From contig JAITLO010000025.1 in the NCBI GenBank assembly GCA_031277855.1, forward strand, positions 1-64,000: DNA of 64,000 nt, in the 5' to 3' direction. The notes beneath the pieces were generated by a model. The model searched no databases, was not told where the DNA came from, and was given only the letters and a program-made list of their open reading frames with translations. Shown one piece after another: positions 54,459 to 62,421 of the stretch. The position numbers and the translations under genes were made by a program. Position 1 is the first letter of the stretch; each line of letters opens with the position of its first letter. This DNA is from Acidovorax sp. Its GTDB lineage: Bacteria > Pseudomonadota > Gammaproteobacteria > Burkholderiales > Burkholderiaceae_C.

Positions 54459-55052
54459 TCACTCCGGCAACGCCAACCTCACCGCATCCGGCCAGGCCCG
54501 TGCCAGGCGCTGTGCGCCTGCAAACTGCGGCTTGGCCGATGCCTGCTCGCAATCCACCAGCACCTGGGACAGGCCTTGGGGGCCGCGCTGCTGCTCCAGC
54601 GCCAGCACATCGGGGCTGCGAAAGTCGCTGAGCAGCCACAGGCAGGCGGGCTGGCCCTGCTGCTGTGCACGCCGGGCCAGCAGCTCCCATGCCTGGTGCA
54701 CGGCCTGGGCCAAGGGCGTGCCGCCGCCGCCTGCCAGGGGCTCAATCAGTGCGGCATTCCAGCGCGGTGCGCGGCCGGGTGCCAGCCGCCATTGCACCTG
54801 GCCGGCGCCAAAGCACAGCAAGGCCACGGGCATGCGCTGCAGATAGGCCCAGCGCAGCCACTGCAGCACCAGGCCTTTGGCGCGCGCCAAGGCTCCGCTG
54901 GCCGTCATGGAGGCCGAGCAGTCCAGCGCAAACACATGCAGGGTCTGGGGCGTGGCCAAGGCCTGGCGCCAGCGTAGATGTGCGGGCTGCAGGCCTGCCC
55001 CGAGGCCAGCATCCAGCAGGCGGGCACGCAAGGTGGCGGGCCAGTCCAGCAT
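54459..55052 (-). CDS. VWA domain: C-terminal part of a ChlD-type chelatase subunit, probably reached by -1 frameshift
   Basis: From the first ATG this frame encodes 197 residues with the VWA fold: metal-site motif DCSASM (DxSxS), then AKGLVLQWLRWAYLQRMPVA, and GGGGTPLAQAV, all hallmarks of the ChlD/BchD C-terminus. The text before it (LDWPATLRA, LQPAHLRWR) is also ChlD-like. The ATG at 55052 has no SD, and the frame is open upstream for 43 codons to an A7 slippery site inside the preceding gene. A -1 shift there would fuse the AAA+ domain, the Pro-rich linker and this VWA domain into one protein of about 645 residues (56395 to 54459). Separate translation from 55052 remains possible. Confidence 0.75.
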   Translation of the reverse strand: MLDWPATLRARLLDAGLGAGLQPAHLRWRQALATPQTLHVFALDCSASMTASGALARAKGLVLQWLRWAYLQRMPVALLCFGAGQVQWRLAPGRAPRWNAALIEPLAGGGGTPLAQAVHQAWELLARRAQQQGQPACLWLLSDFRSPDVLALEQQRGPQGLSQVLVDCEQASAKPQFAGAQRLARAWPDAVRLALPE

Positions 55053-55126
55053 GGCGCCGGCATCTGTTGCCTGGGCTCCCGGCCGCGTCTGGCCGGCCAG
55101 GGCTGCACCCTGGGCAGACGTGTTAG

Positions 55127-55202
55127 CACGCCCCCGACCGCGACCCGCTGGGCTTAGCGCGGCAGGCCGGGGGCGCGGGCTTTTTTTGCGGCCAGGGCCT
55201 CC
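55127..55202 (-). promoter_or_regulatory. Programmed -1 ribosomal frameshift signal in chlD
   Basis: On the minus strand: GGAGG (55202-55198), a 10-base spacer, the heptamer A_AAA_AAA (55187-55181) read as GCA AAA AAA in frame, then a 10-bp stem CGCGCCCCCG (55177-55168) with CGGGGGCGTG (55136-55127, one G-U pair) enclosing inner pairs CCGCG/CGCGG. SD-like sequence, slippery site and stem-loop are the three parts of known bacterial signals such as dnaX. The -1 frame leads without a stop into the VWA domain; the zero frame stops 24 bases after the A-run. Confidence 0.72.
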
Positions 55203-56395
55203 ATGGCGGCCTGGGCCAGGGCATCACCCAGCGGCGGCGCGCAGGGCGTGCTGGCCTGTGACTGAGGGTGGCCCCAGCCCGCCGGTGGCTGCTCCATGGC
55301 CTGGGGGGCCATGGCGGTTTGAGGTTGCTGCGCTGGCGGCTCCGTGCCCGGGGCAGCGCTGTGCGCGGACAGTGTGGGAGCCGGTGCTGCGGATGGAGCG
55401 GGCCCTGCACCCTGCGATTGCGGGGCTTGCCCGGCCTGCGCATCGGCGGACCGTGGCGGTGTCGCCTGTGATGGCTGCTGTGGCTGATTCTGCGACGGGG
55501 CCAATACCGGCTGCTGCGGCTCGGCGCCACGGTGGGCCAGCACCAGAGGCGCGACCCGGGACACATGCTCTGTCTCTATGGCCGGGCTTTGCTCCCAGGC
55601 CGCCAGGGCCCGGGCCGCGCGCAGCATCACCAGGTCTGCACGCAGGCCGTCGACCTGGGCCGCAATGCATTGCTGGGCCACGGCCTCGTGGATGGCATCG
55701 CTCCAGGGCAGTTCGTCGGGGTTGGCGCAGCGTGCACGCGCCACGCGCAAACGCTCTGCCAGCGCGGCCTGCTGGGGTGCATGCTCCCGTGCAAAGCCTG
55801 CAGGGTCCAGCTCAAAGCGCAGCCTGGACTTGACGATGGCGCTGCGCAACTGCACATCCTGGGCATTGGCCAGTTGCACGCACAGACCCAGCCGGTCCAG
55901 CAGCTGCGGGCGCAGCAAGCCTTCCTCGGGGTTCATGGTGCCTATCAGCACAAAGCGCGCCGCATGGCTGTGGGAGATGCCGTCGCGCTCCACACGGTTC
56001 ACGCCCGAGGCGGCCACATCCAGCAGTACATCGACGATGGCATCGGGCAGCAGATTGATTTCGTCCACATAGAGAACGCCGCCATGGGCCTTGGCTACCA
56101 CGCCGGGGGCGAATACCAGCTCGTTGCCTGCCAGGGCCTTGCCCAGGTCCAGACTGCCCAGCACATGCTCCACCGAGGCCCCCAGCGGCAACGTGGCAAA
56201 GGGGGCCGGCGCCAGCAGCTCGGCCAGGGCCCGCGCTGCCGTGGACTTGGCCGTGCCACGCGGCCCCTGTACCAGCACGCCGCCCAGGGCTGGTTCGATG
56301 GCTGCCAGCAGCAGGGCCTGGACCAGTTGGGGCTGGCCTTGTATGGCGGAAAGCGGGAAGTTGCCCCCTGCTTCGTAGGCTTTGGCTTGCGTCAT
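55154..56395 (-). CDS. chlD: ChlD/ChlI-type AAA+ chelatase subunit (zero-frame product)
   Basis: A 413-residue protein. The AAA+ domain has Walker A GPRGTAKST (about residues 43-51), Walker B GGVLYVDEINLLPD and the sensor segment FVLIGTMNPEEG, as in ChlI/BchI and the N-terminal half of ChlD. After residue 310 comes a Pro/Gln/Ala-rich linker of about 95 residues, normal for ChlD but not for ChlI, which suggests the gene is really chlD. ATP-driven insertion of cobalt by CobN needs such a partner. The ATG overlaps the cobN stop by four bases. No separate small-subunit gene is seen, so this short product may serve as one. Confidence 0.85.
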   Translation of the reverse strand: MTQAKAYEAGGNFPLSAIQGQPQLVQALLLAAIEPALGGVLVQGPRGTAKSTAARALAELLAPAPFATLPLGASVEHVLGSLDLGKALAGNELVFAPGVVAKAHGGVLYVDEINLLPDAIVDVLLDVAASGVNRVERDGISHSHAARFVLIGTMNPEEGLLRPQLLDRLGLCVQLANAQDVQLRSAIVKSRLRFELDPAGFAREHAPQQAALAERLRVARARCANPDELPWSDAIHEAVAQQCIAAQVDGLRADLVMLRAARALAAWEQSPAIETEHVSRVAPLVLAHRGAEPQQPVLAPSQNQPQQPSQATPPRSADAQAGQAPQSQGAGPAPSAAPAPTLSAHSAAPGTEPPAQQPQTAMAPQAMEQPPAGWGHPQSQASTPCAPPLGDALAQAAMEALAAKKARAPGLPR

Positions 56396-59300
56396 GGGTT
56401 GACACGTCCTTCCATGAATTCTTCCTGCTCCAGCATGCGCGCCAGCAGTGTCTGGTGCATGTCTTCGGGCTTCGCCCACATACCACGGCCTATGGCCTCG
56501 AGCAGGCGATTCACGATATCGCTCAAGGCCTGGGGATTGTGCGCGCGCAAAAAGCTGCGTACCTGCTCGTCTTCCACATAGGCCTGGGCCACCATCTGGT
56601 AGTGGCGGTCGGAGACCAGGGCCGTGGTGGCGTCAAAGCCGAACAAATAGTCCACCGTGGCCGCCATCTCAAAGCCGCCCTTGTAGCCATGGCGCATGGC
56701 GCCGGCAATCCATTTGGGATTGGTCACACGGGCGCGCACCACGCGGCCGATTTCCTCGGCCAGCGAGCGGATCTTGGCCGACTGTGGATTCCCATGGTCG
56801 CCGTGGTAGACCGCAGGCTCGGCCCCACCCAGATGGCGCACGGCGGCCACCATGCCGCCCTGGTGCTGGTAGTACTCGCTGGAATCGAGTAAATCGTGCT
56901 CGCGGCTGTCCTGGTTTTGCAGCACCACGTCCAGGGCCTGCAAGCGCGTTTCCAGCGCCTGGCGCGCGGGCAGGCCGTCGGCCTGCTGGCCATAGGCATA
57001 GGCACCCCAATGCAGATAGTGGCGAGCAAAGTCGCCGGCATCGGTCCACTGCCCGGTGCGCAGCATCTCGTGCATGCTGGCGCCATAGCTGCCTGCGGGT
57101 GCGCCAAAAACGCGCCACAGGGCCTGCTCATGGGCCAGGGCTGCGTCCATGCCCTGGGCCGTCCAGGCTGCGGCATCGCGCTGCACGCGGGCGCGCAGCG
57201 GGTTGTCTTCCGCGTCTTCCTCCTGCGCGGCCACGGCGCGCACGGCAGCGTCGAACATCTGCACCACATTCGGAAAAGCATCGCGGAAAAAGCCGCTGAT
57301 GCGCAGCGTCACATCCACACGCGGGCGCTGCAGGCCCACGCGGGGGATGACCTCAAAGTCCAGCACGCGCTGGCTGCCCGGCGCCCATTTGGGGCGCACG
57401 CCAATCAGCGCAAAGGCCTGGGCGATATCGTCACCGCCGGTGCGCATGGTGGCCGTACCCCAGACCGAGATGCCTATGGCCTGCGGGTACTCGCCATGCT
57501 CTTGCAGATAGCGCTCTATCAGCCGCACGCTTGACTGCTGGCCCAGGGCCCAGGCGGTCTGCGTGGGAATGGCGCGCGTATCTACGGTGTAGAAATTACG
57601 CCCCGTGGGCAGGGTGTCGCAGCGCCCGCGCGAGGGCGAGCCGCTGGGCCCGGGCGGCACAAAGCGGCCCTGCAGCGCGCGCGAGAACTGGCGCAGTTCC
57701 TCGCTGCCGCAGGCGTCCAGGGCCGGCGCCACCTCGCGCGCCAGGCGCTCGAGCACGGCCTGGGTGTGGTGCCAGTCCTGGGCGATTTGTGGGTCGTCCA
57801 GCACCTGCAAGGCCAGCAACTCCAGGCGCTCGCGCGTATCACCGCCATGGCGCCAGGGGCCGGCATCCAGGGCTGCCAGCAGCGCCGGGCGCGGGCCGGC
57901 CCAGGGGGCGGCCGCATCCATGTCCAGCGGATTCCAATCGCCACCCGGTAAATCCGGCAGCAGATCGGCCACCAGCGCATGCAGCAAACCTTGGGCGCTG
58001 TCGCCCTTGCCTGCGCTGGGGTAGCGGGCCAGGGACAGCAGCGTGGAGGTGCGCAGCTGGCCCTCGGGCGAGCGGCCAAAGACATGCAGGCCGTCACGGA
58101 TTTGCGTTTCCTTCAGCTCGCACAGATAGGAGTCGATGCGCTCCAGCAGTTGCGCGTCCGCATCGACCTTCTGCTCGGCGCTTGGGCCGTCGCTCTGAGC
58201 CTCCGCTTTCGCCTCCAGCCCCAGCTCGCGCAGCAGGTCCTGCTCGCGGGCAACATCCAGAATCTGGCGGCGCAGCATGGTGGCGCGGCGCTGGTCCACC
58301 AGCAGGGCCTCGTAGTACTCGTCCACCAGCCGCTCCAGCTCCTGCATGGGGCCGTGGTTTTCGGCACGCGTGAGCGGCGGCATCAGGTGGTCGATGATCA
58401 CGGCCTGGCTGCGGCGCTTGGCCTGGGCACCCTCGCCGGGGTCGTTGACGATAAAGGGATAGACATGGGGCAGCGGCCCCAGGATGGCATCGGGCCAGCA
58501 CTGGCTGGACAGGGCCAGGCTCTTGCCTGGCAACCACTCCAGATTGCCGTGCTTGCCCACATGGACCATGGCGTCCACGCCGAAGCTGTCGCGCAGCCAG
58601 AAGTAGAACGCCAGGTAGTGATGGGGCGGCACCAGCTCGGCATCGTGGTAGCTGGCGTAGTCGTTCTTGCCATCCAGCGCGCGCACGGGCTGTATGCCCA
58701 CAAACACATGGCCCAGCTGCAGGCCGGCCACCATGAACCAGCCTTGGCGCAGCATGGGGTCCTGCTCGGGCGCGCCCCATTGGGCTTCCAGCGCGGCGCG
58801 CATGGCCTCGGGCAGCTGCTGCAGGCGCTGGCGGTAGGCATCGAGGGAATAGCCCTGGCGGGCCGGGCGCAGCGCCCATTGTTTGGGGTCGTTGGCAATG
58901 CCTTGCTGCAGCTGCTCCATCAGCGCCTGGCCGCTGGCGGGGAGGGCCGCAGCCTCGCCCAGGTTCCAGCCATCACGCTCCAGCTGGGCCAGCAGTTCCA
59001 TCACGGATGCGGGTGTGTCCAGGCCCACGCCGCTGCCCATGCGGGCCTCGCTGCCAGGGTAGTTGGCCAACACCAGGGCCACGCGTTTTTCGGCCGCGGG
59101 CTTGCTGCGCAACGCGCACCAGCGAGCCGCCAGCTCGGCAATCCATTGCACGCGGTCGGGCTCGGCCTGGTAGGCCACGACATCGGTTTGGGTCAGCTCG
59201 CAGCGGTGCACCAGGCCTTTGAAACTCATGGCCCGGGTCATGATGCGGCCGTCCATTTCGGGCAGCACCACCTGCATGGCGATATCGCGCGGGCGCAAGC

Positions 59301-60282
59301 CCTGGGTGTCGGCCTGCCAGTCCTCGCGGTTGCTGCCGCTGGCAATCACCTGCAGCACGGGAATGTCGCCGGCCAGGGTGTCGATCTCCCCCCCTGCCAC
59401 ACCTGCCCGGGCATGCTCGCCCAGGGCCGCAAACGCCGTGGTGTTGAGTATGAGCTGCACCTGGTGGGCCATGCACAGCGTGCGCAGCGTTTGCAGGCAC
59501 AGCGCATCCTTGAGCGACTCCAGCGCCAGCGGCAGCGGGTTCAGGCCCTGCTCCAGCAAGGCCTGGGCCATGGCATCGAAGGCATCGGTGTTGGCGGCCA
59601 GCAGATGCGAGCGATAGAAGACCAGCATCACCACCGGCGCGCCCGGTGTCCAGCGGGCTTGCAGATCGTCCAGGCCGGGAATGTGCGTGGCCCTGTCGTC
59701 CACCCAATCCAGCGGCACATGCACGGCCACCGGCGGCAGCAGGCGCACGGGCGCGCCCTGCTCCGCCCGGCCCAGCCCCCAGGCCGCGGCCATGCGCAAG
59801 AACTCGCGCGCATTGCCCAGGCCACCCGCACGCAGGTATTGCCACAGCGCCCGGCTGTGCTCGGGTGCCAGCGTGCCCCTGGCCAGCAGCTCTGCGTCTT
59901 CCTGGCTGTCGCCCGAGAACAGGGCCAGCTTCTGGCCTTTTTGCAGTGCCAGCTTGCGCAGTTGCTCTATGCCATAGGGCCAGGCCGACTCGGCGCCCAG
60001 GTGGTCGACAATGACCGTCTTGGCATGCTGCAACACCTCGTCGATGTACAAATCCAGTGAGGCGTTCTGGCGCAGATGCAGCAGATTGGCCAGGCGCAGC
60101 GAAGGCACTGACTCGGACGCCTGGGGCTCGGTCTGCTGCCAGATCCGGTAGGCATCGGCCAGCAGGGACAGCGTGGTGTCGGCCGAACTCAGCACCACGA
60201 TCTCTGCAGGGGTCTGATCGAGGCGGGTGATGATGCTGTCGTCTTCGACAAAGCCACCGGGGCGGGTGCTGAGCAAGTGCAT
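56392..60282 (-). CDS. cobN: Cobaltochelatase large subunit CobN
   Basis: A 1296-residue protein, the usual length for CobN. It starts MHLLSTRPGGFVEDDS and carries the family segments DAMVHVGKHGNLEWLPGK, ISVWGTATMRTGGDD and, near the end, NPKWIAGAMRHGYKGGFEMA. CobN binds hydrogenobyrinate a,c-diamide and takes cobalt in the aerobic cobalamin pathway, using ATP hydrolysed by the smaller AAA+ subunits. The gene begins 189 bases after the cobW stop and overlaps the chlD-type gene by four bases. No SD is visible before the ATG. No cobalamin riboswitch was recognised in the 60283-60471 gap. Confidence 0.95.
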   Translation of the reverse strand: MHLLSTRPGGFVEDDSIITRLDQTPAEIVVLSSADTTLSLLADAYRIWQQTEPQASESVPSLRLANLLHLRQNASLDLYIDEVLQHAKTVIVDHLGAESAWPYGIEQLRKLALQKGQKLALFSGDSQEDAELLARGTLAPEHSRALWQYLRAGGLGNAREFLRMAAAWGLGRAEQGAPVRLLPPVAVHVPLDWVDDRATHIPGLDDLQARWTPGAPVVMLVFYRSHLLAANTDAFDAMAQALLEQGLNPLPLALESLKDALCLQTLRTLCMAHQVQLILNTTAFAALGEHARAGVAGGEIDTLAGDIPVLQVIASGSNREDWQADTQGLRPRDIAMQVVLPEMDGRIMTRAMSFKGLVHRCELTQTDVVAYQAEPDRVQWIAELAARWCALRSKPAAEKRVALVLANYPGSEARMGSGVGLDTPASVMELLAQLERDGWNLGEAAALPASGQALMEQLQQGIANDPKQWALRPARQGYSLDAYRQRLQQLPEAMRAALEAQWGAPEQDPMLRQGWFMVAGLQLGHVFVGIQPVRALDGKNDYASYHDAELVPPHHYLAFYFWLRDSFGVDAMVHVGKHGNLEWLPGKSLALSSQCWPDAILGPLPHVYPFIVNDPGEGAQAKRRSQAVIIDHLMPPLTRAENHGPMQELERLVDEYYEALLVDQRRATMLRRQILDVAREQDLLRELGLEAKAEAQSDGPSAEQKVDADAQLLERIDSYLCELKETQIRDGLHVFGRSPEGQLRTSTLLSLARYPSAGKGDSAQGLLHALVADLLPDLPGGDWNPLDMDAAAPWAGPRPALLAALDAGPWRHGGDTRERLELLALQVLDDPQIAQDWHHTQAVLERLAREVAPALDACGSEELRQFSRALQGRFVPPGPSGSPSRGRCDTLPTGRNFYTVDTRAIPTQTAWALGQQSSVRLIERYLQEHGEYPQAIGISVWGTATMRTGGDDIAQAFALIGVRPKWAPGSQRVLDFEVIPRVGLQRPRVDVTLRISGFFRDAFPNVVQMFDAAVRAVAAQEEDAEDNPLRARVQRDAAAWTAQGMDAALAHEQALWRVFGAPAGSYGASMHEMLRTGQWTDAGDFARHYLHWGAYAYGQQADGLPARQALETRLQALDVVLQNQDSREHDLLDSSEYYQHQGGMVAAVRHLGGAEPAVYHGDHGNPQSAKIRSLAEEIGRVVRARVTNPKWIAGAMRHGYKGGFEMAATVDYLFGFDATTALVSDRHYQMVAQAYVEDEQVRSFLRAHNPQALSDIVNRLLEAIGRGMWAKPEDMHQTLLARMLEQEEFMEGRVNP

Positions 60283-61521: not shown

Positions 61522-62421
61522 TCAGGCTCCTGAAGAGGTTTCGCGAGGAATCGGGGAAAGCAGCGGGGAAGGCTGCAGGGAAGGCGGTGGGCAAGAGGAT
61601 TCGGCCTTTGCAGCCTGGCCATGCACGCACAGCGCGCTATCCACCTCACCATGCAGCACATGGCGGCTGAGCACGGCCTGCATCTCGCCTGCATCCTGCA
61701 CGGGCCCATACCAGGCCCCTTGGGGGTAGAGAATCATCAACGGACCGTGGTTGCAGGGATATTGGCAGCTGGTCTGCAGCAGCATGAGGCGCTTTTTCAG
61801 CGGTGGATTCTCGCGCACCACACGCGCCAGTTCGGGCCACAGCTGCACCGCGCCCTTGGCCGCACAGCGCGGCCCCATGCACCACAGCACATGGTGGCTG
61901 TGCTCGGGCACGCTGGACCAGCCCTTGGGGTCATGCTCCCAGGCATCATCTCCCACCACGGCGGGCACATCGGCGGTATCGGGCGCGGCCAGCAGTTGCC
62001 GCACTGTGCCTGCCAGCGTCTCGGCCAGTTGCGGGGCCTCGGGCAGCGGGGGGGCAAAAATCAGCTTGGGGGTGTGGGCATGCTCACCACGCCTTGCACT
62101 CCAGCGCATGATGAGCTTGTGCATCCAGCGGCGCAGCGCGGGCTCATCGGGCACCATGACCGGCATGATGACCACGGTGTGCGCGGCCTGGCAAGCGTCC
62201 AGGGCCTCGGGCAAGGCCGGCTGGTAGCGGTCCACAAAGGCAGGCTGCACGACGATCTGCGTCCAGGTCGGCTCCATGCCCTGTGCCTGTGTTTCGGCCT
62301 GCAAACGGGCATGTACATGCGCTGCCAGCTGGGCCAGTTCCGCCTCGCTGGCGGCATAGACCGCTCCACGTCCGAGCAGGATGACGGCCAACGAATGCGA
62401 AGAGCTTGCGGTGGTGTTCAA
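61522..62421 (-). CDS. CbiX-like domain fused to a thioredoxin-like [2Fe-2S] ferredoxin
   Basis: A 299-residue protein. The N-terminal 150 residues resemble the CbiX/SirB chelatase fold (LAVILLGRGAVYAASEAELA; IVVQPAFVDRYQPALPEALD), but where CbiX has GHG with a metal-binding His this protein reads LLGRGA, so chelatase activity is doubtful. The C-terminal half has four Cys in the ferredoxin pattern: CMGPRC and, 30-odd residues later, CQYPCNHGP. It could pass electrons for cobalt reduction or ring handling in corrin synthesis. A Pro/Ser-rich tail ends the protein. Its start overlaps the binding-protein gene by four bases and its stop lies three bases before cobW. Confidence 0.75.
   Translation of the reverse strand: MNTTASSSHSLAVILLGRGAVYAASEAELAQLAAHVHARLQAETQAQGMEPTWTQIVVQPAFVDRYQPALPEALDACQAAHTVVIMPVMVPDEPALRRWMHKLIMRWSARRGEHAHTPKLIFAPPLPEAPQLAETLAGTVRQLLAAPDTADVPAVVGDDAWEHDPKGWSSVPEHSHHVLWCMGPRCAAKGAVQLWPELARVVRENPPLKKRLMLLQTSCQYPCNHGPLMILYPQGAWYGPVQDAGEMQAVLSRHVLHGEVDSALCVHGQAAKAESSCPPPSLQPSPLLSPIPRETSSGA

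Follow-up and report, generated by a model that had tools for sequence, protein, structure and literature searches.

The window, by which we mean the whole 64,000-nucleotide stretch of Acidovorax sp. DNA analysed here, carries on its minus strand a cobN gene and, directly downstream and coupled to it, a chlD gene whose AAA+ and VWA parts lie in different reading frames. The stop codon of cobN and the start codon of chlD overlap as ATGA. The features of the locus are as follows.

56392..60282, minus strand: cobN, open reading frame for the cobaltochelatase large subunit (TIGR02257, 1499 bits against a cut-off of 822)
55154..56395, minus strand: zero frame of chlD, comprising AAA+ domain, lid and Pro-rich linker; putative small subunit of 413 amino acids
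55198..55202, minus strand: GGAGG, an SD-like element 10 nt before the slip site
55181..55187, minus strand: slip site A_AAA_AAA, in phase with the AAA+ frame (the zero frame reads GCA AAA AAA)
55175..55180, minus strand: 6-nt spacer GCCCGC, with a sense codon in the window's clade where other loci have a stop
55127..55177, minus strand: putative stimulatory stem-loop (arms 55177-55165 and 55139-55127), with the zero-frame stop in its loop
54459..55223, minus strand: -1 frame, with a 43-codon linker after the slip followed by a VWA domain (stop at 54461-54459)

The zero frame ends at a TAA (55156-55154). Its AAA+ part matches AAA_lid_2 and Mg_chelatase and, partially and below the whole-protein cut-offs in every case, TIGR02442, TIGR02030 and TIGR02031; the models matched are those for putative cobaltochelatase, BchI/ChlI and BchD/ChlD, and the solved BchI/ChlI structures 1g8p, 8osf and 6l8d are matched as well. 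The -1 frame is open from 55223 to 54462. Its VWA part matches the C-terminal parts of D-type models (TIGR02442, 406-617; TIGR02031, 412-546), again below the whole-protein cut-offs, together with the solved BchD domain 2x31, and it is the sole VWA of this type in the genome. The DxSxS, T and D residues of the VWA part, which we take to be the VWA metal site, are invariant across 24 aligned relatives. A -1 slip at the heptamer would give a product of 645 amino acids that includes the AAA+ part and whose C-terminal part is the -1 frame, a putative medium subunit. The window thus has the layout of a frameshifted chlD gene (hereafter fs-chlD), namely an AAA+ frame that is ChlI/ChlD-N-like followed by a ChlD-type VWA frame at -1. 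The initial annotation of this DNA had read from its letters a Pro-rich ChlD linker in the AAA+ product, a -1 frame without a stop for 43 codons leading into a ChlD-type VWA domain, an A_AAA_AAA slippery site read as GCA AAA AAA, and GGAGG 10 bases upstream of it, and all four were recovered at the coordinates listed (the A7 at 55187-55181).

A minus-strand open reading frame beside cobW (61522-62421) has a C-terminal part that matches 2Fe-2S ferredoxin models below their cut-offs, and its N-terminal part, judged by eye, may be a CbiX-like chelatase. Between 44642 and 53366 lie, again judged by eye, two sets each of a TonB-type receptor with FecR-like and ECF-sigma-like open reading frames; beyond them, the plus strand encodes a BtuF-like binding protein.

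Related loci were gathered in two scans. The family scan gave a VWA match in 119 of 399 genomes, of which the best 52 places, the window's own included, were read, and the named-genome scan contributed 70 loci. An A_AAA_AAR in phase with the AAA+ frame lies where the two frames overlap in 99 of the 108 loci that were scored as -1, and removal of five duplicates left 94 nonredundant sites, 86 of them AAAAAAA and eight AAAAAAG. The nine -1-scored loci that lack A_AAA_AAR are L044, L053, L061 and six read as bchI-bchD pairs. From the first 50 family loci we dropped L016 and L037 (no AAA+ part), L012 (an in-frame fusion), and L044 and L053 (no heptamer). From the 70 named-genome loci we dropped L096, L100 and L102 (no AAA+ match), ten bchI-bchD pairs, the in-frame fusions L062 and L105, and L061, in which the A7 is present and the AAA+ frame is broken. 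L129 (with the heptamer) and L130 (with C_CCA_AAG) stand outside the 94, and L131 has no VWA match. Ten distant loci (L115, L117, L118 and L122-L128) were considered as split or fused relatives and rejected; each consists of an AAA+ gene and then a long single VWA-bearing frame, and they are therefore counted as bchI-bchD pairs. In L117, L118 and L123 the long frame showed no AAA+ match.

Along the AAA+ frames of the 94 loci, in-phase A_AAA_AAR occurs once per junction and at none of the 41,958 other codon positions, so that the slip site is more than a chance occurrence. The A7 is conserved in relatives that include Comamonas composti. The locus of C. composti DSM 21721 (L059), an independent assembly and the nearest of the 70 named-genome loci (96% identity over the VWA query), has the same A7, the same -1 offset and the same stop position as the window, which argues against a sequencing error. 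The shift site is placed most tightly by L109 and L114. Their frames share no more than 10 nt, AAAAAAAGCC, and a -1-frame stop immediately precedes the A-run; unless translation starts anew, the A-run is the sole point of entry into the second frame. An ATG beside the A-run of these two loci was considered as a VWA start and rejected, as by eye it lies outside the VWA frame. In three family genomes (L044, L053 and L130), C_CCA_AAR takes the place of A_AAA_AAR, with the -1 offset and the stop inside the spacer both retained, an apparent turnover of the slip site.

Most SD-like tetramers upstream of the heptamer are separated from it by 9, 10 or 11 nt (7, 29 and 26 counts, respectively), and no other spacer between 4 and 49 nt has more than two. 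Such a tetramer stands 7-13 nt before the heptamer at 44 of the 94 sites; control windows placed further upstream gave 5.1 on average and at most 10. At these 44 sites the SD-like element, GGAGG in the window, is conserved in position, and the remaining 50 have no SD-like tetramer at 7-13 nt.

Downstream of the slip site, the longest uninterrupted stem in the window measures 13 bp, with a 12-bp core in the RNAfold centroid. Beginning at offset 3, this best helix takes in the stem at offset 6, and the 10-bp GC stem that had been annotated a few bases downstream is contained in it, with a start 3-6 nt past the heptamer. Folded alone, the 76 nt downstream in the window do not exceed dinucleotide shuffles in stability (z -0.64; 47 of 200 fold as well), and the window's stem is convincing by comparison with relatives only. 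In 87 of the 94 loci, compared with 35% of mononucleotide shuffles, a helix of 5 bp or longer begins precisely 6 nt past the heptamer, the best downstream helix begins at offset 6 in 65, and the best helix has a mean length of 9.1 bp versus 5.8 in shuffles. The stem also covaries. Its fourth pair is seen as A-U, U-A, C-G and G-C, and when one pair was hidden while the partner arm was chosen, the masked pair proved complementary in 64-84 of the 94 loci versus about 32% in shuffles, the shared ancestry of the loci staying in all of these shuffle controls.

The genomic setting was then compared with the pathway that such a gene would serve. There is one cobN in the genome, the sole CobN match, and the annotated arrangement, in which cobN adjoins chlD and no chlI lies in the window, was confirmed. 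Contig C40 carries a B12 cluster encoding CobF, CobM, CbiE/CbiT, CobJ, CobI, precorrin-8X methylmutase and CobG. CobG and CobF are marks of the oxygen-dependent B12 route, where CobN and two partner proteins insert cobalt at a late step. A genome-wide search for a separate chlI or cobS found neither in this draft of 49 contigs (95.5% complete); the best CobS match reaches 35 bits against a cut-off of 559, and the better of two TIGR02030 matches is, among the matches listed, the chlD locus itself. The other three PF01078 matches were considered as chlI and rejected, since they are the YifB ATPase and two sigma-54-type regulators. Across the family, ChlI scores above the cut-off in 63 of 399 genomes. 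Among the matches listed, one of the 45 heptamer genomes (G109) has a separate ChlI above the cut-off; this genome holds fs-chlD (L038) and ChlI together, on L038 and other contigs. A match to the C-terminal part of CobN lies upstream on the same strand at 63 of the 64 loci with enough flank, L040 being the exception. Outside the window, no B12-synthesis gene was present among the eight open reading frames scanned in the first 20 kb of the 40 kb beyond it. A search of Rfam returned one match, at 8.6 bits versus a gathering score of 55, and the plasmid collection gave no match.

The initial annotation had interpreted the locus as a chlD gene that yields both chelatase subunits by frameshifting, and the A7, the positioned SD-like element, the stem and the failure to find chlI or cobS in the draft genome support that interpretation. 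Judged from these comparisons of sequence, the -1 frameshift signal in chlD is real and well conserved, and one gene very probably gives rise to the putative 413-residue small and 645-residue medium subunits of a cobaltochelatase by a -1 slip. Ribosomes translating the AAA+ frame would reach A_AAA_AAA, and those that stay in frame would read eight more codons, stop at the TAA and release the 413-residue AAA+ protein as a ChlI/CobS-like small subunit. A fraction would slip back by one base, assisted by GGAGG 10 nt upstream and by the downstream stem, and would read on through the VWA part to produce a 645-residue ChlD/CobT-like medium subunit. Both subunits together with CobN would then form the aerobic cobaltochelatase of the CobG/CobF-type B12 pathway of the same genome.

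Three other accounts of the two frames deserve consideration. The VWA frame might be started separately, by coupling after the AAA+ stop or at an ATG of its own, and never be joined to the AAA+ part. The window does contain a first -1-frame ATG at 55052, 43 codons past the slip site, and in 17 of 91 loci at least one ATG, GTG or TTG of the -1 stretch is accompanied by an SD-like tetramer (L049, L094 and L107, which gave no motif match, are omitted from this count). However, the window's ATG stands about 100 nt past the zero-frame stop and, as had been annotated, has no SD-like tetramer; C. composti has no start codon at its position, and in 57 of the 91 loci no ATG at all occurs from the heptamer to the VWA metal-site motif. 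Ahead of the ATG, moreover, the -1 frame changes mainly by synonymous substitutions. Between the slip and the ATG, 14 codons differ between the window and C. composti, nine of them synonymously in the -1 frame and one of the same 14 in either other frame, a comparison of one sequence pair. Separate initiation, which would also leave the heptamer, its phase and the placed stem unexplained, is on this evidence very unlikely.

A slip at the same A-run could also occur during transcription, with RNA polymerase adding or dropping an A at the A7 and the altered messages being translated. The site is a pure A-run, and PMC3711429 reports higher shift with 9 and 11 A, but the run here is of seven, the 94 sites read AAAAAAA or AAAAAAG (86 and eight), and ribosomal slippage, unlike transcriptional slippage, would be expected to have an SD-like element and a stem at set positions; we regard this account as slightly less probable even than separate initiation. 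That the offset is a sequencing or assembly error, or the mark of a decayed pseudogene, is scarcely credible. Homopolymers do invite errors and the assembly consists of 49 contigs, yet the same A7 and offset recur in C. composti DSM 21721 and in dozens more genomes, some of them in one contig, and the invariance of the VWA metal-site residues in the 24 aligned relatives speaks against decay.

Programmed -1 frameshifting at the ribosome, the reading we prefer, has precedent in this gene. The initial annotation had stated that the production of both subunits from one chlD by frameshifting was already reported in some cobN-containing genomes, and three papers agree (PMC3711429, PMC5009743, PMC9227772). 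PMC3711429 (Antonov et al. 2013) describes 23 magnesium-chelatase fs-genes from six genera, including Burkholderia, Delftia and Pseudomonas, and for other members of the group gives 63, 40 and 10% frameshifting in E. coli reporters with cassettes of 11, 9 and 7 A. PMC5009743 (Atkins et al. 2016) places A_AAA_AAR under strong purifying selection and notes that the stem sequence is not strongly conserved, a remark that the covariation of the stem observed here fits. The model of two subunits from one gene is put forward in PMC9227772 (Kuznetsov et al. 2022), which cites Antonov 2020. A literature search on Comamonas and programmed frameshifting found no paper in the collection searched. Since chlD frameshifting, in Delftia and Burkholderia among others, has been in print since 2013, the kind of event is known and the window is a further member.

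The known fs-chlD genes resemble the window in that AAA+ and VWA frames are joined at A_AAA_AAR by a -1 shift with a downstream stem, and in that cobN is present and no small-subunit gene was found. They differ in having the zero-frame stop in the spacer, whereas the window and four relatives have it inside the hairpin loop, 24 nt past the heptamer. Magnesium chelatase, a related chelatase, likewise has an AAA+ small subunit and an AAA+/VWA medium subunit. Unlike the window, however, it uses two genes, chlI/bchI and a single-frame chlD/bchD; ten compared loci are read as this type and lack the heptamer, and the window has no such combination of a separate small-subunit gene with a single-frame medium-subunit gene. 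CobNST would be expected from the pathway to share its reaction and its CobN partner with the window's system, but has cobS and cobT, whereas the window's genome has no cobS above the cut-off. A further likeness is to Escherichia coli dnaX, whose SD-like element precedes the slippery heptamer by about 10 nt and whose stem follows within a few nt. The A_AAA_AAG, SD-like element and hairpin of dnaX form a layout like that of chlD (PMC3711429), although the gene is unrelated and the shifted product is shorter in dnaX and longer in chlD.

The position of the zero-frame stop sets the window's clade apart. At 89 of the 94 sites this stop is the second codon after the heptamer, inside the spacer. In the remaining five (the window, C. 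composti, L006, L007 and L008) the spacer stop has become a sense codon and the stop lies 24 nt after the heptamer, that is, 21 nt further downstream, in the hairpin loop. These five loci form one group on a long branch with full SH-aLRT support in a quick tree of 93 loci, from which L038 was left out. Two genomes of the window's genus (L018 and L019) have the usual layout. One may speculate, tentatively and as a reading we hold to be rather doubtful, that the signal was rebuilt in this Comamonas composti-type clade such that unshifted ribosomes must also open the stem, possibly coupling efficiency to traffic.

Acidovorax sp. SUPP3334 (L012, L062) presents a natural one-product case, with an in-frame AAA+/VWA fusion in a single-frame chlD that has no A-run. 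No separate ChlI above the cut-off was found in its genome (G328), which is a draft in about 140 contigs; the full-length protein may be enough in this strain, unless a gene is missing from the assembly. Both products would presumably be needed for cobalt insertion where chlD is frameshifted, and the SUPP3334 fusion speaks against a general need.

These results extend a known kind of recoding to one more genus, Comamonas, and the comparison of loci defines its layout: an SD-like element, in most cases 9-11 nt before the heptamer, then a spacer of 6 nt and a stem that covaries. Without thought of recoding, an fs-chlD gene reads as two separate open reading frames. The displaced stop, A_AAA_AAG, C_CCA_AAR and the in-frame fusion are natural variants with which the need for two products can be tested. 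In the window's clade, the displaced stop would lengthen the small subunit, with eight residues rather than one past the slip site, and, if the tentative reading above is true, could couple frameshift efficiency to ribosome traffic.
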